This document shows, piece by piece, positions 49,556-64,000 of a stretch of DNA of 64,000 nucleotides; the first letter of the stretch is position 1; the number at the start of each line of letters is the position of its first letter. Origin of the DNA: Rhizobium sp. 007 (GTDB taxonomy: Bacteria > Pseudomonadota > Alphaproteobacteria > Rhizobiales > Rhizobiaceae); the NCBI RefSeq assembly GCF_015353075.1, contig NZ_CP064188.1, positions 1,488,001 through 1,552,000 on the forward strand, read 5' to 3'. Both the position numbers and the translations under genes were made by a program. The notes beneath the pieces were generated by a model. That model was not told the DNA's origin. It saw only the letters and a list, made by a program, of their open reading frames with translations, and did not search any database.

Positions 49556-51113
49556 CTAACGCTTCTTCTTTTTCTCAAGCGGCTTTGCTGCCGCAAAGAA
49601 CCCGTCCCACGGGTCTTTCGGCAGCGCGTCGAGCCGCGGCGGCGTGTTCTCGATGGTGAAATAGGCCGGGCCGAGGTCGGCGGTGAGTTCGGTCCATTCC
49701 AGCGGCATCGAGACGGCCGCTCCCGGCCGGGCACGCGTCGAATAGGCGGCGACTGCGGTGTTGCCGCGGCCATTGCGCAGGTAGTCGATGAAGATCTTGC
49801 CGGTGCGTTCGGCTTTCGTCGCCTTTGCGATGTAGCGGTCCGGGCTTTCTGCGGCCATGGTGTCCGCCAGCCGTTTCGCAAAGGCCTTCACCTCCGCCCA
49901 ACCTGCTTTTGGCTTCAGTGGCGTGACCACATGCAGGCCCTTGCCGCCGGAGGTCTTGACGAAGCCGGCAAGTCCTTCGGCCTCCAGGCGCTCTTTGATC
50001 TCGCGGGCGGCAGCGATGATACTATCCCACGCAACCTCGCCGCCCGGATCGAGGTCCATGGTTATCATGTCCGGTTTTTCCCAATTGTCCGTCGTCGCGC
50101 CCCAGGGATGAATTTCGAGCACAGCCGATTGCACGAGGGCCACCAAACCATCGAAATCGGCAATGCGCAGCAACTTTTCTCCGCCCCTGTCCTTCGGATC
50201 CGTGATCTGTTCGATATTCTCGTTCATGCCCTTCCAGGCGTGTTTCTGGAAGAAACGCTGATGTCCTTCAATGCCGTCTGGCAGACGCAGCAGAGCCAAA
50301 GGACGATTGACCACGTAAGGCTCCATGAAGCGCCAGACCTGCGCGTAATAATTGGCAAGTCCTTCCTTGGTAACGCCTTCATCCGGCCAGTAAATGCGAT
50401 CCGGATGGGTCAGCGTCACTTGCGATTTCGGCAGGCTTTTTGCGGTCGTCTTATCCATCTCGCGCACCACGTCCTTCGCCAGTTTGTCCTCGCGCAAACC
50501 GCGGAAAGCGGCATGCCGCAGGTTACCATCGGCGGACCACGCGCGAAATTCCACCTCCGCGACAAGCTCCGGCTTCACATAAATAAGCCCGCGCCGTTCC
50601 TCCGACGTCAGCTTACCGTCAAAACAACTCCCCTTCTCTTCGATTTTGGAAAGCCGCTCATAGAGATCCTGGGCCACCGTGGCTGTGTAGCCGGTGCCGA
50701 CACGTCCGACATGCTTCAGCTTGCCATTATCATAGTAACCCATCGCCAACGAGCCGATCGCATTCTTCATGGAGGTCGATGGCACATAACCACCAATGAC
50801 AAGCTCCTGTCGGTGCGAGCACTTGGCCTTGATCCAATCGCCATTGCGGCCGGACGTATTCGAAATCGCCGTAGGAAAGGGGGTGATCCTCCACGTGGAC
50901 GGCGAGACGCTTGTCCTCCGGATTGAGGCTTGGTCCCCGGGTCACGGCCCAGCTTTTCAGGACCCCGTCTATCTCCAGCCGGTAGTCATAATGCAGCCGC
51001 GTGGCATCGTGCTTTTGAGTGACAAAACTGTTTCTAAGACTGCGGCCTTTGGCGTCACGCGGTTCAGGGGTGATCCTGAAGTTGCGTTTTGCCTGATAGG
51101 TCTCGAGCGCCAT
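49556..51113 (-). pseudogene. ligD: DNA ligase D with large internal deletion and frameshift (polymerase domain intact)
   Basis: The gene opens as a normal LigD: phosphoesterase domain from MALETYQAKRNFRI through LHYDYRLEIDGVLKSWAVTR to SYGDFE (85 codons). Near 50858 it jumps, out of frame, to the end of the ligase domain (SGRNGDWIKAKCSHRQELVI, then GSLAMGYYDNGKLK). The missing part of about 300-330 codons (estimated from usual LigD length) includes the adenylated lysine. The downstream frame (ORF 49556-50785) keeps the OB fold and a complete primase/polymerase domain with MITMDLDPGG and FVKTSGGKGLHV, so a free polymerase module could still be made. It follows ku by two bases. Confidence 0.85.
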
Positions 51114-51115
51114 GG

Positions 51116-51961
51116 TCAGCCAGCTTTCTTGCGGCGGCTATCAGAGGCAGGGCGTTGCGCCGTCCCTTTCGCAGGCGCTTTCTTTTCACTCAACTTGGCA
51201 CTCTGGCGCAGCGCCTCCATCAGATCGACAACCTTGCCCTCCGGCTTCGGCTTCCTCTTCGGCAGTGCCCTTCCCTCGACCTTGGCCTTCACCAATTCGG
51301 TCAGCGCCGCCTCGTAGCGATCCTCGTATTCGCTCGGCTCGAACACGCCCTTCTTCGTACCGATGATATGACCGGCAAGCTCGAGCATCTCCTTGTCGAA
51401 CTTGATGTCCGGAATGTCCTTGAAGACCGGATCGGCAGAACGGACCTCGTAGTCGAAGTTCAACATCGTCGCGATGACGTAGTCCTCACGCGGGCGGATC
51501 AGCAGGGTCCGGTTGCGCCGGAAGAGCACGGCCTCGGCAAGCGCTGCCACCTTGTTTTCACGCATGCTCCTCGCAATCAGGCGCAGCGCCTCTTCGTCAT
51601 TCTCATCGACAGGTCCAAGATAGTAAGGACGGTCGAAATAGAGCTTGTCGATTTCATCGAGAGCAATGTAGCTCTGGACATCCATGACCTTGTCGCTCTC
51701 GGGCATGACATTTGCAATCTCGTCGCCTTCGATGACGATGTATTCGCCATTGTCCATCCGGTAACCCTTGACCTGATCCTCGCGCTCCACAGGCTTGCCG
51801 GTCTCGCTGTCCACGAACTGACGCTCGACGCGATGGCCGGTCTTCCGGTTGATGATATTGAAGGAGAGCCGGTCCGATGCGGAAATTGCCGTATAAAGCC
51901 CGACGGCGCAGACAAGGTCGCCAATCTTCAGATGACCCTTCCAGCTTGCCCGCGCTGCCAT
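51116..51961 (-). CDS. ku: Non-homologous end-joining protein Ku (second copy)
   Basis: The 281-residue Ku has the bridging core (ARASWKGHLKIGDLVCAVGL, NIINRKTGHRVERQFVD, AEAVLFRRNRTLLIRPRED) and a basic C-terminal tail (KKAPAKGTAQRPASDSRRKK) typical for the DNA-binding extension of rhizobial Ku. It is clearly different from the copy at 47345. GGAGGCGGGG before the ATG; its stop is two bases before the ligD start, giving the usual ku-ligD operon. A heterodimer with the first copy is possible. Confidence 0.93.
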   Translation of the reverse strand: MAARASWKGHLKIGDLVCAVGLYTAISASDRLSFNIINRKTGHRVERQFVDSETGKPVEREDQVKGYRMDNGEYIVIEGDEIANVMPESDKVMDVQSYIALDEIDKLYFDRPYYLGPVDENDEEALRLIARSMRENKVAALAEAVLFRRNRTLLIRPREDYVIATMLNFDYEVRSADPVFKDIPDIKFDKEMLELAGHIIGTKKGVFEPSEYEDRYEAALTELVKAKVEGRALPKRKPKPEGKVVDLMEALRQSAKLSEKKAPAKGTAQRPASDSRRKKAG

Positions 51962-55938: not shown

Positions 55939-55967
55939 GTTGACGCTGCAATCACTGCTGGTTATAG
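55939..55967 (+). promoter_or_regulatory. Predicted sigma-70 promoter of the siderophore operon
   Basis: TTGACG (55939-55944), a 17-base spacer, then TATAGC (55962-55967): close to the consensus housekeeping promoter and correctly oriented, about 70 bases before the first gene. The expected transcription start near 55974 falls inside the palindrome at 55972-55998. Confidence 0.65.
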
Positions 55968-55971
55968 CGGC

Positions 55972-55998
55972 CATATCTTGAGTCATAGACTCAAGATA
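55972..55998. promoter_or_regulatory. Perfect 27-base palindrome containing TGA-N9-TCA (RirA-type iron-responsive operator)
   Basis: Twelve-base arms (ATATCTTGAGTC at 55972-55983, exact complement at 55987-55998) around the centre ATA. The core is TGA (55978-55980), nine bases, TCA (55990-55992), which is the published IRO-box pattern for RirA, the Rrf2-family iron regulator of Rhizobiaceae. It overlaps the predicted transcription start, so iron-replete repression is expected. Binding by another dimeric regulator is the alternative. Confidence 0.7.
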
Positions 55999-56037
55999 TA
56001 AAATGCGATGCAAAAAGCGAGCATGAGGCCGGACCGC

Positions 56038-56469
56038 ATGGAATATTGCCTTCTCTCCCCAGCACGATTGATCCCAACAGAAGAGGTGAATTTCGACAGA
56101 GTCGACGCATTACAAGCCAAAATCCTGAAAGCAGGTGCATGGACCGCGCCAATAACGGCAGAAAAAGATGCCCTGTTCGTCATGGACGGCCATCACCGAC
56201 TGACGGTTGCACATCGCCTAAAGCTCGCCAAGATACCCGTGGTCCTTCTCGACTACAATTCAGTGCGGGTGGAAAGTTGGCGCCCGGGTGAGGAGATCAC
56301 CCCTGCGGAAATCTTCGAAATGGCGCGCAGCGGCCGCAAGTTTCCCTACAAAACAACACGGCACATCTTTGCCCAGGGCGTGCCGACATGCGATGTCCCT
56401 CTTGAGCTTTTGTGCAAGCCCGCTTCGTCAGAAATGGCGCCTCTACGCGCTTCCGGGGCGCTGTCATGA
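56038..56469 (+). CDS. SbnI-like ParB-domain protein (putative free-serine kinase of siderophore pathway)
   Basis: About 143 residues. The N-terminal ParB/Srx-like fold is indicated by the acidic [16 protein letters not shown] loop and the block [20 protein letters not shown], where the DGHHR motif is the usual ATP-contacting region. In staphyloferrin B biosynthesis the similar SbnI phosphorylates free serine to O-phosphoserine for SbnA. Here it heads an operon with an SbnA-like gene, so the same role is proposed; DNA binding is the older alternative. ATGs at 56008 and 56023 are also possible; GAGG nine bases before 56038 favours that start. Its stop overlaps the next ATG (ATGA). Confidence 0.75.
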
Positions 56470-57839
56470 CGTTGCATTGCCACAAGATCGACTCTGACCT
56501 GCCGCCGATTTTACGATCGGCGACTGCAGACCTTCTCACCCGGCACGATCCTCTTCTTCTCGACTGGGTTGCCCGTTTCGGCTCACCGCTCAATTTGGTC
56601 TGGCCGGACGCGTTGCAGGACAACTTTGCGGCGTTAAGAACCGTGCTGACGGAGGGCGGCGTCGAGCATGCGATCTATTATGGAGTGAAAGTCAACAAAT
56701 CGCCCGGCCTCATGCAGGCGGCGCTCAGCTCAGGCGCTGGACTCGACGTCTCCAGTCTTTATGAACTTCGCGACGCAAGGCGGCTTGGGGCCAATGGCAC
56801 CAGGCTCGTGGCGACCGGGCCGGCGAAAACGGGCGCATTCCATCAAGAGCTCATTGATTGCAACGCGCTGATATCGGTGGACTCGCCCGAGGAGCTGGAA
56901 GAACTGGTCGTTCGCTTGCCGGCACATGCCAGTCCGCACCCGATCCTCCTGCGGCTTCGGCCGAGGGATCAGAGCAAGAGCCGTTTCGGCATGCCGGCGG
57001 AGACCGTCATTCCTTGCCTTGCCCGTATTGCACGGGAAAGCAGATTGCGCTTCGACGGGCTACATTTCCATCTCAGCGGATATGGCTGGGAGACCCGCTT
57101 GGCAGCACTGAACGAGGCCGCTGAACTCATTGCCGAAGCGCGGGCCATGAGACTTTCTCCGCGCATGATCGACATCGGTGGGGGCTTGCCAGTTCAATAC
57201 GTCGATCAGTTGAAGTATCAGGCGCATATCGCAGCCCAGACGCCTGAGGACTATCGTACCGGAAAAATACCGGGCTCGTTCTATCCCTACGGCAGCGCTC
57301 TCGCAGCGCCGGATTGGCTGCGCCGCCTCTTGCAGGCTGAGATGAGCGAAGGCCGCAGCGTCGCGACCTATTTTAGGCAGGAGCAGCTCGTTCTGGCAAT
57401 GGAGCCGGGTCGCGCCTTGGCGGACCAGGCGGCCATTACGGTCGTTCGGGTAACGCGCGTGAAATCCCTCGATGCGGGCACGTACGTCATCTTCGTTGAA
57501 GGCAGCAGCTTCAGCGCCTGCGAAACCTGGTTTGCCTCCGAGTTTCTGGTCGATCCGATTCTCGTGCCAGCCGCCAGACCACTCTCCGTGTCTTCCCCAA
57601 TCCGGGCCTATCTCGCCGGACATAGTTGTCTCGACGAGGACGTTCTCAGCAACAGGTGGCTGACCTTCCCCGTCACCCCGCAAGCCGGAGACCTCCTGGT
57701 CTTCGCCAATACTGGCGGTTACCAGATGGATCTTCTCGAAAACGAATTCCACCGCCACCCGATGCCCGCCCGCCTATGCGTCGTCGGGGACGCTAAAGGG
57801 CATCCCATCCTCATTCCCGACGCAGACGAAGAGGTTTAA
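56466..57839 (+). CDS. Y4yA-family PLP-dependent decarboxylase (fold type III)
   Basis: The 457-residue enzyme of the diaminopimelate/ornithine decarboxylase group has the PLP lysine at 75 ([11 protein letters not shown]). Further blocks are [44 protein letters not shown] and a C-terminal region with [21 protein letters not shown]4yA is an NCBI-named family first seen on the NGR234 symbiotic plasmid. In SbnH-type roles it decarboxylates a siderophore precursor; here it could convert an amino-carboxyethyl intermediate to its ethylenediamine form. Overlaps the preceding gene by four bases, and the next ATG directly abuts its TAA. Confidence 0.87.
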
Positions 57840-58850
57840 ATGCTGCACACGACCGTAACGCAATTGATCGGCCAAACTCCGGTAATGTCGATTGACGTGC
57901 CGAGCCGCGAAGCCGTCTTGGTATTGAAGATAGAGAAGAACAATCCCGGCGGCTCGATGAAGGACCGCATGGCACGCAGCATGGTTGTCGCCGCTCTCGA
58001 AGATGGGCGCCTCGCGCCGGGAGGCACCATCGTCGAATCATCCTCCGGCAATACTGGCACCGGCCTTGCGCTCGCTGCACTGGAGTTCGGGCTGCGCTTT
58101 ATCGCAGTGGTGGACCATCATGCGGCACCCGACAAGGTCCGCATGATGCGGGCGCTCGGCGCCGAGATCCGCTACGTCGAAGGCGATTTTCGCGAGGACG
58201 AAGTTGCCGTCGTCGAGCGACAAAGGCTGGCCGCACAGCTAGGAGCCCAGCTTCCAGGCGCGTTGTTCATGAACCAATCCGATAATCCGGCAAATCCGGA
58301 AGGCTATGCCGGTCTCGTCGACGAGTTGCTGACCCAACTCCCGGACGGCATTGATGCCTTTGTCGGTTGCGTCGGGACAGGCGGCTCTATGACTGGGATC
58401 TCCCAGCGCCTCAAGCGCCACAACCCGGCCGTGCGCACGATCGCGGTCGAGCCGGCAGGATCGATTGTCTTCGGCAAGCCTGGGCATCCCTACTATCAAT
58501 CCGGAACGGGAACGCCGGCAGGTGACGAGGTCGGTAAAGTGCTGGACTATGGCTGCATTGACGAGGGCGTCCAGGTGACGGACACCCAAGCCTTCGAGAC
58601 GGCGCGCTACATCGCACGCAGCAAAGGACTGCTGGTGGGCGGTTCAACGGGCGGCGCCATCTACAAGGCGCTGGAGCTTATCGCCGCCGGCAAGCTGACA
58701 GGCACGGTCGTGACGACGGTCGCGGATGGCGGAGAGAAATATCTGGGTTCGATTTTCGACGACGAATGGATGGCAAAGCGCCGCCTTCTCGACCCGGCAA
58801 TCGCCGTCCAGCTGGATGGCTGGCTCTCCGGACGGGCGCGCGCAGCATGA
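57840..58850 (+). CDS. SbnA-like PLP-dependent synthase (cysteine synthase family)
   Basis: The 336-residue fold-type II PLP enzyme has the internal aldimine lysine at 41 (NNPGGSMKDRMARS), the substrate loop ESSSGNTGTGLAL and the phosphate-binding loop GCVGTGGSMTGI. It is related to SbnA, which joins O-phosphoserine and glutamate to give N-(2-amino-2-carboxyethyl)-glutamate, and to y4xP of NGR234. The preceding SbnI-like gene would supply O-phosphoserine. If lysine replaces glutamate as nucleophile, the product fits rhizobactin assembly. Starts right at the previous stop (TAAATG) and overlaps the next gene by four bases. Confidence 0.88.
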   Translation: MLHTTVTQLIGQTPVMSIDVPSREAVLVLKIEKNNPGGSMKDRMARSMVVAALEDGRLAPGGTIVESSSGNTGTGLALAALEFGLRFIAVVDHHAAPDKVRMMRALGAEIRYVEGDFREDEVAVVERQRLAAQLGAQLPGALFMNQSDNPANPEGYAGLVDELLTQLPDGIDAFVGCVGTGGSMTGISQRLKRHNPAVRTIAVEPAGSIVFGKPGHPYYQSGTGTPAGDEVGKVLDYGCIDEGVQVTDTQAFETARYIARSKGLLVGGSTGGAIYKALELIAAGKLTGTVVTTVADGGEKYLGSIFDDEWMAKRRLLDPAIAVQLDGWLSGRARAA

Positions 58851-59986
58851 AGGTGACCATTTGTGGCGCTGGCCGCACTGGCCACTTGAACGCGGTTCTT
58901 TTCAAGCAGGTTCCAGGCATTGAGGTTTCTGTCCTGACCACCTCCAACACGGTCGCCGGGCGATGGGCAAGTGGCGACGATCTCTGGCAAGCACAGACCC
59001 GGGACGATCACATCTTGAGCGCCAGGCCCGACCATGTCGGAACCGATCCTGCCAAGGCGCTTGAGAATGCCGATATGGTCGTCATCACGCAGCCAGCCCA
59101 GGCGAGACCGGCACTCTTGCATCGAATCGCGCCGCATTTGCCTCGGGATAAGAGCGTGTATGTCGGAGCAATTCCCGGCTTTTGTGGCTTCGATTGGCTC
59201 GCGGCAAAAGCGCTTTCAGGATGCGAGAATGTAGTGATCTGGGGCATGAAGGACGTGCCCCACATCGCCTTCGACCTGGTCGCGGGGCAGAAGGTGCGAA
59301 TGGGTGGGGCCAAAGCAGAACTCTTTGTCGCTCTTCATCGTCGCGAAAGCGCTGCCAGCGGCGCCGGACTCACGGCAATGTTGAATCGCCTCTACGTGGC
59401 GCCCGTCACCCTTTTGCGAGACTACCTTGAGATCACTTTGACGCCGGGCAACGCACTGATGCATCCCGCCATCCTTTACACTCTCATCGGCCCTGGCGCA
59501 CCCTTCGAGAACAGGCCATTCAACGAACCCCTGTGCTGGTGGAGCGATTGCCCTCAAGCAGGCGCCGAGCTCCTGGAAGCTTGCGACGCGGAGAATCAAG
59601 CGATCCGGCAAGCGAGTGAGGCGCGTCTCAGCATTGATTTGAGTTCCGTAAAGCCGCTTCAGCAGGAACTCGTGGAGGCCTATGGGAACCAGATCGCGGA
59701 CGACCGGACTCTGTACACGCTTCTGCGCACAAATCGCGCCTATGCGGGCATCCGTGCGCCCCTCGTTGCCAACCCATACGGTCCGGGACTCATCGTCGAT
59801 CGCGAAAGCCGCGCCTTCCATGAGGATATCGCCTTCGGACAGGCCCTGCTCGTCACAATGGCGGAACGGCTCAATGTGGCGGTTCCCGCCATTGCCAAAA
59901 CCTATCAATGGGCGCGCGACTATCATGGCGGATTGGCCGACGGAGCGCTCGACTATGTACCATCTGACTGGCCGGAGGCAGCTTAA
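58847..59986 (+). CDS. Opine dehydrogenase-like NAD(P) oxidoreductase
   Basis: The 379-residue protein has an N-terminal Rossmann fold (KVTICGAGRTGHLNAVLFKQ, dinucleotide motif at 7-12) and an octopine/nopaline dehydrogenase C-terminal domain, recognised by NALMHPAILYTLIG with the catalytic-type His. Such enzymes reductively condense an amino group with a 2-keto acid (commonly pyruvate or 2-oxoglutarate). In a siderophore operon it could add a carboxyethyl group from pyruvate. Run in reverse, it could open an amino-carboxyethyl-glutamate to diaminopropionate, the job of SbnB. No SbnB homologue is present in the window. ATGA overlap with the SbnA-like gene. Confidence 0.85.
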   Translation: MKVTICGAGRTGHLNAVLFKQVPGIEVSVLTTSNTVAGRWASGDDLWQAQTRDDHILSARPDHVGTDPAKALENADMVVITQPAQARPALLHRIAPHLPRDKSVYVGAIPGFCGFDWLAAKALSGCENVVIWGMKDVPHIAFDLVAGQKVRMGGAKAELFVALHRRESAASGAGLTAMLNRLYVAPVTLLRDYLEITLTPGNALMHPAILYTLIGPGAPFENRPFNEPLCWWSDCPQAGAELLEACDAENQAIRQASEARLSIDLSSVKPLQQELVEAYGNQIADDRTLYTLLRTNRAYAGIRAPLVANPYGPGLIVDRESRAFHEDIAFGQALLVTMAERLNVAVPAIAKTYQWARDYHGGLADGALDYVPSDWPEAA

Positions 59987-61872
59987 TGGACGAGAAAATT
60001 TCTTCTGCAACAGATCAAATTGCGACAGGTGAGACAGAGCTTCTGGAGAAGGCGGCGTGCAATGCGATCAGCCGCCTGGTCCGCTGCCTGTTCGCGGAAC
60101 GTCTGTTGGATCCGAATGCATTGTTGTGGGCTCATGACGGCAGGCAGGCTTGGTTTCCCCTTTGGGTTTCGCGGCGTGTGCTGCACTTTACCGACCTGTA
60201 CCTTGCGCCGGCCGGAACATTGCAAAATCGCGGGCAAATCGAAGTGCTGGACGGAACAGGCATCCGATACAGGATCGATGGTCCCGCCGCCCTGATGCGG
60301 GAGGTTGCGCCGTCTCTCGCGCTTACGCCTGCGCCCGACGGACTAGAGCACCTGCTCCGCGACGTAGACGATAGCATGCGCAACGACGTTCTCGCACGGC
60401 GCCATCGGGAACGCTGGAGCGCCGAACTACGCCAGAAAATCGCTGAGGCCGATGCATCAGGCTTCCTTGCCTATCTCGAAGGAAACCTGCCCCCGCACTT
60501 GGCTGCCATGACCCTCGACCAATGGGGTGCGCTTGAGGGCCACCCCTTCTATCCGACATGGAAGGCAAAGCCCGGCCTGCCGCCCGAAGACGTTATTGCA
60601 CTATCACCGGAGTTCGGCGCCCGTGTGCGGCTTCGCATTGCCGCGTTGCGCAACGACTGGGCCTATGTGGAGAAGATGCCGCATGTGGAAAGCTATTCGG
60701 GATGGTTTTCGAAGAACTTCCCCGACCTCTGGCAGCACTGGACCGATGGCCTGAGAGAGCGCGGGAAACTACCCGAAGACTGGCTTCCTTTCCCTGTCCA
60801 CGCATGGCACCTGAAGAATTTTGTGCATCGCGAATTCGCGCCCGAGATCTCGGCGGGTGTTTTCGACCCGGAAGGCCCGGAGATCGTCACGCTGGCGTCC
60901 ATGTCGTTCCGCACGATGCTGCCGGAGACAGAGGCACCGAGACCTTTCATCAAGCTGCCGGTAGCAATCTGGATGACGAGCGAGCAGCGCACGCTGCAGG
61001 CCAAATCGATCCATATGGGGCCTCGCCTCAGCGCGCTGATTTCCGACATTCTGTCGAAGGAGGAAGATCTCAAAAATGAGCTGGAGATTTTCACCGAAGA
61101 GCTGGGCGCCATTCTGCATCATCCGGACACGGGCGACGAGCATCCCGGCCGTTTCCTGTCGGTGGTCTATCGCAGCACCGGTGCCTTGGCACGCGGCGAT
61201 GGCATGTTGCCCGTAACCGTCGCGGCGCTGCTGACGGCAAGCCCGCTGGACGGCAACCCTCTCATCTGCGAGCTCATCGCCAGAAATGGCAACGAGAGCG
61301 AGGCGGCGGTTGCCGCATTCTTCCGCGCCTATGCGCGCACCGTCGTCCGGCCGGCGCTCGCCATGTACCTTCTCTACGGAATTGCTTTCGAGGCGCATCA
61401 GCAAAATAGTACGATTCTCTTCGACGATCGCGGCCAGCCGCGGAAACTGCTGATCCGCGACTTCGGCGACGGCCGCAGTTTCGTGCCACTCTTCAAGGAG
61501 CGCGGTTACGCGCTGCAGCCGTTCAGCCGCAAGGGGATTCTGCCGACGACGTTCGACGACGACATCAGTCTCGTCCGCTCCTTCGTCATCGATGCCTGCT
61601 TTGTCTGCCACCTTCATGAGATCGCCCTTTGCCTCACCGAGCACTATAAGCTTTCCGCCGACCGTCTGTGGCGCATCCTGCGGGAGGAGACAGAAGAGGC
61701 GTTCCAGACGCTGCGGCCCCGGATGCTGTCTGATGCGTTCTGGCTTGCGGAGCGCGAAGCTTTTCTTGAACTGCCTTGGCCGACCCGTTCGGTTCTGCGG
61801 ATGCATCTGGAACGCTATCGCGACTATCGGCTCGAACACCAATTGCCCAACCCGCTGGTGGGGGCGCAATGA
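59986..61872 (+). CDS. NRPS-independent siderophore (NIS) synthetase, IucA/IucC family
   Basis: The 628-residue enzyme of the IucA/IucC superfamily activates a carboxylic acid with ATP and forms an amide with an amine. Family marks: [35 protein letters not shown] (ATP-binding SxR-type block), EAHQQN (469-474) and RDFGDG (491-496). Length is typical. Being the only NIS enzyme in the operon, one condensation is expected, as in rhizobactin (one hydroxy-acid amide), in contrast to three synthetases for staphyloferrin B. Its ATG overlaps the previous stop by one base (TAATG). Confidence 0.92.
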
Positions 61873-63098
61873 CCAGTGCAGTCGCCGTCCTGCGCGGCTT
61901 CGGACCTGTCTTCGCGCTGCTGTTCGGCCTGCAATTCATTTCCATGGGCGCCATGGAAATGAGCGGCCCCTTCTGGCCGATCCAGATCAAGGCGTTGAGC
62001 ACTTCCGGAAGCATGTTCGGTCTCGCCGGAATCGGCGTCTATGTATGTCCGATGCTCGGCGTATCGCTGACGAGCGCCTTTTGGGGGCGCATGGGCGACC
62101 GCTACGGCAATCGGCTGATGATGGTCCGCGCCTTGGCGGGCCTGGCGGTCACGCAACTACTTGTCGCCTTTGCGAACGACGTGTGGACCATTCTGGCTCT
62201 GCGCTTCCTGCAGGGGGCGTGCGCCGGCTATATCGCCCCGTCCCAGGCCTATAGCGTGCAGGTCACAGGCGGGCGCGATCGCGCGCGTCTCTTCGCCTGG
62301 CTCCAGGTGGCAACCAATGTCGGCTCTCTTGGTGGCGCCTTCCTGGGTGGCCTTATCCTTGATGCCTTGCCGTTCGCGGCCGTCAATCTCACCGCCGGCG
62401 TGATCTGTGCGCTCTGCGCCATTGTTGCCTGGGGTAGCTTGCCGGTACCGCCAGGAGGTGCGGGCTTCAAGGGTCCGGCAAAGCGGAGCACGGCGGGTCT
62501 TGCGCCATCGGCCGGCTTATCCGTGCCCGGACTCCTGGCACTGATGGGGATACTGCTGACAAGCAGGATGGTCCTGCAGGTCCCGTTTTCGCTCTTCATG
62601 TCGGAGGTCTACAGCGCTCATCATTGGATCACCGGCTTAAGCTACGGGCTCATGGCGCTCGGTTTCGTGGTCACCGCGCCCCTATGGGCACGGCTCTTCG
62701 AGGATCGCGCGCCGTCCTTTGTACTCGGATGGAGCGTGTTGATCGCAGCCGGCTGCCTCGCGGTCACCGGTTTTGCCGGCTCGACCCGTGCCATCGGCCT
62801 TTTCGCTGCGCTCTATTTCGCTTGGGGCGCGCTCCTTGGAGGAACGACGCCGGTGCTGCTGTCCCTCGTTTCGGCAGCCACGCAAAGCGACCGGCAGGGA
62901 TCGGTCCTGGGGCTCGCGCAGAGCTGCCAGCAGATTGCTTCGGTCGTCGGGATCATCGCCGGCGTTGTTGCCACGCAACGGTACGGTCTCGAAATCGCAT
63001 TCCCGCTCGTTGCGAGCCTTTATGGCCTATCTTTTTTAGTGGCGCTTGGCCTATGGCTCAAATCGCGCCCGTCATCCGACAAAGGAGAATTATCGTGA
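61869..63098 (+). CDS. MFS transporter, likely siderophore exporter
   Basis: The 409-residue, 12-helix major facilitator protein of the drug-H+ antiporter type has [14 protein letters not shown] (motif A) and [16 protein letters not shown]. The open frame extends upstream within the NIS gene, but ATG 61869 overlaps its stop (ATGA), so it is coupled. In NIS operons such MFS proteins usually secrete the finished siderophore; here y4xM on the NGR234 plasmid is the analogous gene. Import of the ferric complex would instead use the adjacent binding protein. Confidence 0.87.
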
Positions 63099-64000
63099 GG
63101 AGAGACCGTTCGGCCTTGCGTGCCGTGATCGCGGCTTTTGTGTTGATTGCAATGGGCCCGGCGATCATATTCGCCGGCGAACAGGCAACGCAAGCACCGA
63201 TCACTGTCACCGACATCGCCGGCCGTGAGGTGACAGTGAACGCGCCGGTCAAGCGGATTCTCCTTGGAGAGGGGCGGCAGCTTTATCTCATCGCCTCGCT
63301 CGACAAGGAAGACCCGTTGGCCCGCGTCGTCGGATGGCGCAACGATCTGGTCGAGGCCGATCCCGCCACCTACGCCCAGTATCTCGACGCCTTTCCCCAA
63401 CTGGCGAAGCTTCCGGCCTTCGCAGGAAAGGAGAATGGGCTGATCGACATCGAATCGACCATCGTCCAGAAGCCCGATGTGGTCCTGCTCAATCTCGAAG
63501 CGATGAGGGCCAATCAGGACGTCAACTATATCGAGAGGCTGGCGGAGCTGAAGATTCCGGTGCTCTATATCGACTTCCGTCATGCCCCGCTGAAGAACAC
63601 CGAACCGACCATTCGCCTCCTTGGCAAGATCATGGCGCGCGATACGCGTGCGGAAGAGATTATCGCTTTCCGGCATCAGGCCATGTCCCGCGTGACTGAT
63701 GTGCTCGCCCGTGCCAAGCCGCAACGCCCGAGCGTGTTCGTCGAACGGATCGGCGGGTATGCCGATGATTGCTGCCTGTCATTTGGTGCGGAAAACTTCG
63801 GCAAATATGTCGAACTTGCCGGCGGCCACAATATCGGCAGCGACTTGCTTCCCTCCACCTTCGGACAGATCAACCCCGAGCAGGTGATCGCCGCCGATCC
63901 TGAGCAGGTGGTGGTTACCAGCGCCGACTGGGAAGCCTATGTCCCAGGTGGCAAGTGGATCCAGCTTGGCCCGGGCGCCGATCCCGAGGTGACCCGCAAG
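63095..64000 (+). CDS. Periplasmic ferric-siderophore-type substrate-binding protein (partial, 3' end outside window)
   Basis: Open from GTG 63095 (overlapping the MFS stop as GTGA, with AAAGGAGAA upstream) for at least 302 codons. A signal peptide ([20 protein letters not shown]) is followed by the FecB/FhuD-like binding-protein fold: [54 protein letters not shown]. These proteins deliver ferric siderophores or haem to an ABC importer, whose permease and ATPase genes would be expected beyond 64000. Two neighbouring cysteines (YADDCCLSF) are unusual for the family and could form a disulphide or contact metal. Confidence 0.88.

Follow-up and report, generated by a model that had tools for sequence, protein, structure and literature searches.

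In rhizobactin, lysine and malate are combined with an ethylenediamine bridge and an alanine-like unit; the compound was first obtained, in this malate form, from Sinorhizobium (Ensifer) meliloti DM4, whereas in rhizobactin B citramalate replaces malate, and Pseudomonas sp. FEN makes rhizobactin and, in higher amount, rhizobactin B (PMC7676072). A 2023 title ascribes rhizobactin, as an NRPS-independent (NIS) siderophore, to Caballeronia mineralivorans (Blanco Nouche et al. 2023, AEM 89:e00453-23; strain PML1(12)), and the pbt cluster of Proteus mirabilis, with its opine dehydrogenase, pyridoxal phosphate (PLP) enzyme and decarboxylase, has been described as an NIS siderophore system, proteobactin (Himpsl et al. 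2010; PMC11026637), whose synthetase PbtA has been placed in one clade with Y4xN (PMC11026637). Here we describe an operon of this kind in Rhizobium sp. 007 (genome of 7.60 Mb in 5 contigs), located in a stretch of 64 000 nt, positions 1488001-1552000 of contig 2, which we call the window. As judged from its genes, the operon very probably makes, exports and, with a binding protein and a TonB receptor, retakes rhizobactin or a molecule that differs from it by at most one building block. Given the Proteus pbt and Caballeronia reports, the window operon therefore belongs to a kind already known, which seems to have been published for Caballeronia in 2023 and, with no structure attached, as proteobactin in 2010.

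The operon comprises seven plus-strand genes starting at 56008, with the order y4yB-y4yA-y4xP-y4xO-y4xN-y4xM followed by the binding protein gene, and successive junction overlaps of 4, 0, 4, 1, 4 and 4 bases can be read from the sequence, in agreement with an initial annotation that had described seven genes joined by overlaps of four bases or fewer. The start given there, 55939, is where the promoter (55940-55967) begins, and the last gene extends past the window end. The features are as follows:

55940..55967, plus strand: sigma-70-like promoter, TTGACG-N17-TATAG, upstream of y4yB
55979..55993, no strand assigned: predicted RirA-type iron-responsive operator (IRO), TGA-N9-TCA, between the promoter and the y4yB start
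56008..56469, plus strand: y4yB-like gene, SerK-like, 153 aa; NCBIfam SerK 46.7 bits (cut-off 380)
56466..57839, plus strand: y4yA-like PLP decarboxylase (Orn/DAP/Arg decarboxylase); PF02784 4.6e-22, best NCBIfam model LysA 104.9 bits (cut-off 297.9)
57840..58850, plus strand: y4xP-like PLP synthase (PALP); PF00291 2.3e-67
58847..59986, plus strand: y4xO-like opine dehydrogenase; PF02317 2e-27, octopine dehydrogenase in the PDB 3.7e-33
59986..61872, plus strand: y4xN-like NIS synthetase (IucA_IucC and FhuF); PF04183 8.6e-45, PF06276 1.5e-37
61869..63098, plus strand: y4xM-like predicted exporter of the major facilitator superfamily (MFS); PF07690 3.5e-48, best NCBIfam model the rhizoferrin exporter FslB 124.5 bits (cut-off 600)
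63095..64000, ending at 64258 beyond the window, plus strand: periplasmic siderophore-type binding protein (Peripla_BP_2); PF01497 2e-10

Pfam assigns the decarboxylase, the opine dehydrogenase, the single IucA/IucC synthetase, the MFS transporter and the binding protein as originally named, so that the gene set of a rhizobactin-type opine-NIS operon (decarboxylase, PALP, PF02317, IucA/IucC) is present in the window. The y4yB protein has no Pfam match; its N-terminal part aligns with the free serine kinase in the PDB (E=5e-8), with Glu30 and the DGHHR stretch of SerK kept, a C-terminal KTTRH stretch gives a weaker second match to SerK, and the middle part is missing. On this alignment the protein is related to free serine kinase (SerK/SbnI kind) but shorter, in line with the SbnI-like first gene proposed at the outset. 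For y4xP, which had been called an SbnA-like PLP synthase, the SbnA model (237.3 bits, cut-off 349.95) and the cystathionine beta-synthase model (237.1 bits) both stay far under their cut-offs, and no match at curated score came from a family search aimed at a better reference for SbnA. Because the two models score y4xP equally, 'SbnA-like' is a choice and not a result. The y4xO protein keeps His212, Arg324 and Asp329 of octopine dehydrogenase as identical aligned residues, while y4xN, the sole IucA_IucC match in the whole host genome, finds its best NCBIfam model in FslA (rhizoferrin; 276.3 bits, cut-off 1000). The binding protein scores 241.8 bits with the NCBIfam ferrichrome/ferrioxamine periplasmic transporter (cut-off 374), and past the window end a TonB siderophore receptor of 713 aa, above its NCBIfam cut-off, lies on the opposite strand at 64518-66659.

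The five predicted enzyme types match the bonds of rhizobactin one for one. Y4yB would convert serine into O-phosphoserine, from which Y4xP would eliminate the phosphate and add the alpha-amine of lysine to the aminoacrylate; Y4yA would decarboxylate the new serine-derived unit to give N2-(2-aminoethyl)lysine, i.e. the ethylenediamine bridge, the amine of which Y4xO would condense with pyruvate and then reduce. Y4xN would finally join malate to lysine N6 as a malyl amide, Y4xM would export the product, and RirA would repress the operon under plentiful iron. The identity of the genes, their conservation, the promoter and operator sequences and the kinship with loci of producers or their relatives come from the sequence data, whereas every substrate named in this route (lysine, malate, pyruvate and O-phosphoserine included), the sequence of its steps and the control by RirA are our inference.

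This product assignment is supported by two known producers that appear to fit the operon, FEN via Pseudomonas batumici and S. meliloti via its accessory plasmids. P. batumici UCM B-321, the type strain closest to FEN with an average nucleotide identity of 90.56% (PMC7849696), carries the operon (L065; loci are numbered here with an L) as its only IucA_IucC match, and complete operons with receptor, binding protein and IRO are found on accessory plasmids of S. meliloti and Sinorhizobium medicae (L084, L124, L125). The initial proposal of rhizobactin or a close relative as the product thus gains support from the operon in P. batumici, and also from a citramalate-type gene that is found on the rhizobactin B side only (see below).

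To follow the operon across genomes, the opine dehydrogenase alone served as query over a genome collection (92 relatives, best 80 kept), and three plasmid-collection loci fetched with the NIS protein were added, giving 83 loci in which more distant forms are undersampled, the query being alphaproteobacterial and only the best matches being kept. The genes y4yA, y4xP, y4xO and y4xN occur together in 83 of the 83 loci, which come from alpha-, beta- and gammaproteobacteria; the counts for the other genes are 78 (y4yB), 82 (y4xM), 77 (receptor) and 71 (binding protein), and 64 loci have all eight genes. Some of these absences are due to contig ends, and L010, L011 and L085 are copies from type III secretion system (T3SS) regions. 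The gene order varies by lineage, with the NIS gene first in Pectobacterium and Proteus and the receptor before y4yA in many betaproteobacterial loci; the association has therefore outlived rearrangement, and the joint occurrence of the operon genes is not due to chance. Among the six genes y4xP is the most conserved (66-72% identity to beta- and gammaproteobacterial loci), and its identity to 12 homologues picked from other loci is 67-96%. Within the window's own genus an NIS match was found in 13 of 120 genomes, and hence the operon NIS gene is an accessory trait; 11 of these matches are nearly full length with 67-100% identity (window included), one is a fragment of 211 residues (75%) and one is remote only. 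The nearest named NIS relative in the tree belongs to Rhizobium mongolense subsp. loessense (94% identity; its opine dehydrogenase is 99% identical), and the NIS gene also occurs at 95-98% identity on Rhizobium gallicum plasmids of about 2.4-2.5 Mb. The R. gallicum plasmid pRgalIE4872c holds a lone y4xN paralogue (L112:12001-13884; 76% identity) near genes for ectB, aspartate-semialdehyde dehydrogenase and alanine racemase, which we set aside as an operon member since no other operon gene matched within 25.9 kb.

The work on rhizobactin in C. mineralivorans reportedly used mutants and liquid chromatography with tandem mass spectrometry. Another Caballeronia genome (L046) holds all eight operon genes, yet differs from the window in being betaproteobacterial and in its order, with the receptor first, then y4yA-y4xP-y4xO-y4xN-y4xM and the binding protein, and y4yB about 2 kb further on; a Fur-like match of 13/19 upstream is reached by 3 of 200 shuffles. 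Among 58 genomes of that genus five have an IucA_IucC match, two of them of the operon kind (the NIS of the second is 97% identical) and three unlike its NIS, one being partial. All eight genes are likewise found in the P. mirabilis locus L086 at 44-66% identity, and its NIS is 47.9% identical over the full length to that of the window, versus at most 28% for NIS proteins outside the family among the 60 plasmid records listed, which places the putative window synthetase in the PbtA-Y4xN group. Unlike the window operon, in which tblastn found no such gene, the proteobactin cluster has a citrate-lyase-beta-like gene (pbtI; L086:10936-11772), read in a review as a citrate lyase giving oxaloacetate for PbtA (PMC11026637). 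In the literature we looked at, including the accessible portions of that review, we found no structure for proteobactin. We found no link between rhizobactin and proteobactin, nor between rhizobactin and an opine dehydrogenase, in the openly licensed PMC literature, which does not imply their absence from print.

Clustering of unassigned neighbour ORFs showed that a gene with the PF03328 domain (CitE-like; four members scanned) accompanies 29 of the 83 loci, from Pseudomonas, Pectobacterium, Samsonia, Bosea and P. mirabilis and none of them rhizobial, and that it is divergent from the operon or from part of it. By tblastn the 29 carriers were confirmed, and no match was found in the window, its downstream stretch (L003) or the other 54 loci, among them the 34 loci L004-L035, L084 and L085. 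In two members scanned the best NCBIfam model is RipC (137.9 and 154.6 bits, cut-off 375), a citramalyl-CoA lyase and C-C lyase of itaconate degradation (NCBIfam). The solved structures that match the P. mirabilis member best bear the names acyl-CoA or citrate lyase beta chain. A lyase of this sort, if it works towards bond formation, could provide citramalate, or malate when glyoxylate is the substrate. In a tree of 82 NIS proteins without outgroup (L056 and L058 left out, with NIS matches under 1500 nt), the presence of the gene in 27 carriers needs 2 changes versus 23.1 for shuffled labels, a difference that is inflated by near-copies; L037 and L069 sit among the carriers without the gene, on long branches. 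P. batumici falls on the carrier side, and the opposite side holds the window together with the rhizobia and Caballeronia. This clustering of the gene on the P. batumici side, matching the citramalate of rhizobactin B, is new here. The genotype thereby matches the known chemistry of the two sides, malate in S. meliloti and mostly citramalate in FEN; this match was noticed post hoc and draws on two strains of known chemistry, so it should be taken as a prediction and not as proof. We lean, if only slightly, towards a joint reading in which rhizobia and Burkholderiales make the malate form, Pseudomonas, Pectobacterium and Proteus make the citramalate form with the help of an additional citramalyl-CoA-lyase-like enzyme, proteobactin is rhizobactin B or a near twin, and the T3SS copy is a captured, decaying rhizobactin operon.

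In Bosea sp. Tri-44 (L062:692-13026) the operon falls into two halves that diverge from each other and flank the CitE-like gene, and on the Serratia marcescens plasmid pE28_003 (L115:732-14395) an operon of the CitE type has an IS903B-family element inside the 5' part of y4yA. A class V aminotransferase/desulfurase-like gene adjoins the operon in 17 of the 83 loci (15 Pseudomonas, L054 and L063; two tested) and on the Serratia plasmid, for example at L080:14304-15488 and L065:14226-15488.

The predicted sites upstream of the operon would allow control by iron. The motif TGA-N9-TCA is the RirA operator consensus (PMC6386902, PMC8822346), and of the 35 alphaproteobacterial loci, counting the window, 22 show a predicted IRO in the 130 nt that precede y4yB, compared with 673 of 17 000 random stretches of the same length; its ends are constant between loci and the N9 core is variable. 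The 13 alphaproteobacterial loci without an IRO comprise seven from Bradyrhizobium, whose family is said to lack RirA (PMC8822346), two from Leisingera, L024 and three T3SS copies. In the genome of the window the receptor gene, too, has a predicted IRO in front of it. The window has the promoter pattern TTGAC-N16-18-TATAG, as do 15 of 37 other loci when up to 300 nt upstream are considered; the 37 include the nine T3SS copies, none of which has it. The pattern was met in 31 of 9000 random 130-nt and 80 of 9000 random 300-nt stretches drawn from nine such loci. Outside the 34 loci L004-L035, L084 and L085, 41 of 49 loci were scanned for Fur boxes (L041, L058, L076, L078, L056, L044, L062 and L069 left out), a match being accepted if at most 7 of 200 shuffles reached it; 12 loci had one, namely P. 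batumici, the P. mirabilis locus and 10 of 18 loci of mainly betaproteobacterial origin. An exact-pattern search of the upstream stretches scanned gave no sites resembling the iron control element of Irr. Next to the operon, 18 of 19 Pseudomonas loci have ORFs that fall into one cluster with a FecI-like sigma factor (tested in L065) and into another with FecR (tested in L067). The homologous pbt cluster is repressed by iron and adds to chrome azurol S (CAS) activity, a CAS defect having shown only in the nrp/pbt double mutant (PMC11026637).

In S. fredii-type rhizobia six of the operon genes stand between nopX and nopL of the T3SS region. In NGR234 (L085) these are the same six genes in the same order as in the window, with 76-94% identity, and the comparison with y4yA-y4xM of NGR234 suggested at the outset thus holds up; this copy differs in having no promoter of the operon pattern, no complete IRO, no binding protein and no receptor. 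We compared nine T3SS-type copies (L085, L010, L011 and L116-L121) with 12 chosen complete copies; seven of the nine are annotated beside nopX and nopL, and L010 and L011 were joined to these by identical upstream sequence. All nine share one junction, at which other sequence has taken the place of the promoter and of the left half of the IRO palindrome, its right half and the start of y4yB being kept, and neither binding protein nor receptor was found in any of them. By contrast, IRO, binding protein and receptor are present in every one of the 12 complete copies, one of which (L123) carries a stop in its match to y4yB. The y4yA gene is broken in six of the nine T3SS copies (L010, L011 and L118-L121) and open in NGR234, CCBAU 05631 and CCBAU 83666. 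The 'enigmatic' y4yB-y4xM genes thus look like a captured copy of the operon, cut through its putative iron operator, and since the nine copies are close relatives a single capture is probable. Upstream of nopX, at L085:5861, there is a tts-box-like site that agrees with the consensus at 17 of 18 positions. Apigenin induces y4yB-y4xM 53- to 83-fold in NGR234, downstream of tts box 8 (PMC10970691), and capture would put siderophore synthesis without uptake under flavonoid control. The T3SS copy as a working, flavonoid-driven siderophore source in every strain is weakened by the broken y4yA in six of nine copies. Mutations of three of the T3SS-region operon genes in USDA257 are described as having no symbiotic effect (PMC4881576). 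Capture and decay would explain both the location of these genes and their state.

Several points weigh against the assignments made so far. In Rhizobium sp. 007 the product is assigned from sequence; P. batumici is another species than FEN, so that the operon in FEN itself is deduced from a relative, and we know of no product data for P. batumici. Similarly, we infer that the rhizobactin locus of C. mineralivorans is of this operon kind. FEN and E. meliloti DM4, with rhizobactin and rhizobactin B, represent the expected product type, but the accessible text on FEN assigns no such operon and points instead to rhbAB, homologues of rhizobactin 1021 genes (PMC7676072). For S. fredii, y4xP has been reported as a cysteine synthase (Lorio 2006, via PMC3973906), and one soybean cultivar was nodulated more when the gene was inactivated in USDA191 (PMC3973906), an effect that capture and decay do not explain by themselves. 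In addition, S. fredii HH103 and its rirA mutant had no CAS activity and only 2 of 40 S. fredii strains were positive (PMC6386902), results that may be a caution for the assignment, depending on the operon copies in those strains. For the homologous PbtA, a review proposes a type B enzyme using oxaloacetate and not malate or citramalate (PMC11026637). Finally, the Fur box is unconvincing in 29 of the 41 loci scanned, including 14 of 15 Pseudomonas and 7 of 7 Pectobacterium-group loci.

Other explanations were weighed as well. The operon might make a different opine-NIS siderophore, with another amine (ornithine or diaminobutyrate) or another acid (citrate, citramalate or oxaloacetate), since sequence does not reveal the substrates, FslA, which uses citrate, is the named NIS model that comes nearest, and the CitE-like gene suggests that the acid differs between clades. 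Oxaloacetate, moreover, has been proposed for the P. mirabilis homologue (PMC11026637). Yet the window NIS falls with the rhizobia and Caballeronia on the side without the CitE-like gene, and the chemically known rhizobial producer makes the malate form (PMC7676072), so that we regard such a product as rather improbable. It is far harder to see the operon as making an opine metallophore for zinc or another metal, although opine dehydrogenases are typical of the zincophores staphylopine and pseudopaline (PMC7438024): the predicted operators upstream are of iron type (IRO, Fur), receptor and binding protein are of siderophore type, the homologous pbt cluster is iron-repressed (PMC11026637) and the operon proteins include no nicotianamine-synthase match. 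If, on the other hand, Y4xP were an ordinary cysteine synthase, as published (via PMC3973906), the operon would be a mixed one for iron and sulfur stress and not one pathway; the family scores leave room for this (222.7 bits with a cysteine synthase A model, cut-off 387), but the company of y4xP with y4yA, y4xO and y4xN in all 83 loci despite their rearranged order, and its rank as the most conserved of the six genes, make this reading very unlikely indeed.

Three known systems were rejected as matches. The staphyloferrin B (sbn) cluster of Staphylococcus aureus has a serine kinase, a PLP beta-replacement enzyme, a decarboxylase and several NIS synthetases. The window operon shares its enzyme types, but has one NIS gene together with an opine dehydrogenase whose action would retain the amino acid adduct and build on it; the single NIS gene and the SbnA score below cut-off led to the rejection of sbn. 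Rhizobactin 1021 (rhb) uses two NIS synthetases, against one IucA_IucC match in the whole genome here. A staphylopine-type zincophore (cnt) locus combines a nicotianamine-synthase-like gene with an opine dehydrogenase, and no match to the former was found among the operon proteins, to which this search was limited.

Upstream of the operon, at 49556-51961 of the window, a Ku gene and an ORF for the ligase-C and polymerase parts of LigD lie on the minus strand, and by eye a separate LigD-like N-terminal ORF can be seen between them at 50730-51113; ligD may therefore be truncated. On Sinorhizobium chiapasense pB a ligD gene is likewise found close upstream of the operon.

With the proposed assignment, the siderophore first isolated from a rhizobium gains a candidate gene locus in rhizobia themselves, and the location on accessory plasmids could account for rhizobactin being confined to some S. 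meliloti strains. It further hints at how nature could assemble an ethylenediamine chelator out of serine and lysine. If the joint reading is true, one operon family would tie up three loose ends and propose a structure for proteobactin, the siderophore of a urinary pathogen, and the long-standing puzzle of these genes in a symbiotic secretion cluster would become a simple history of capture and decay.

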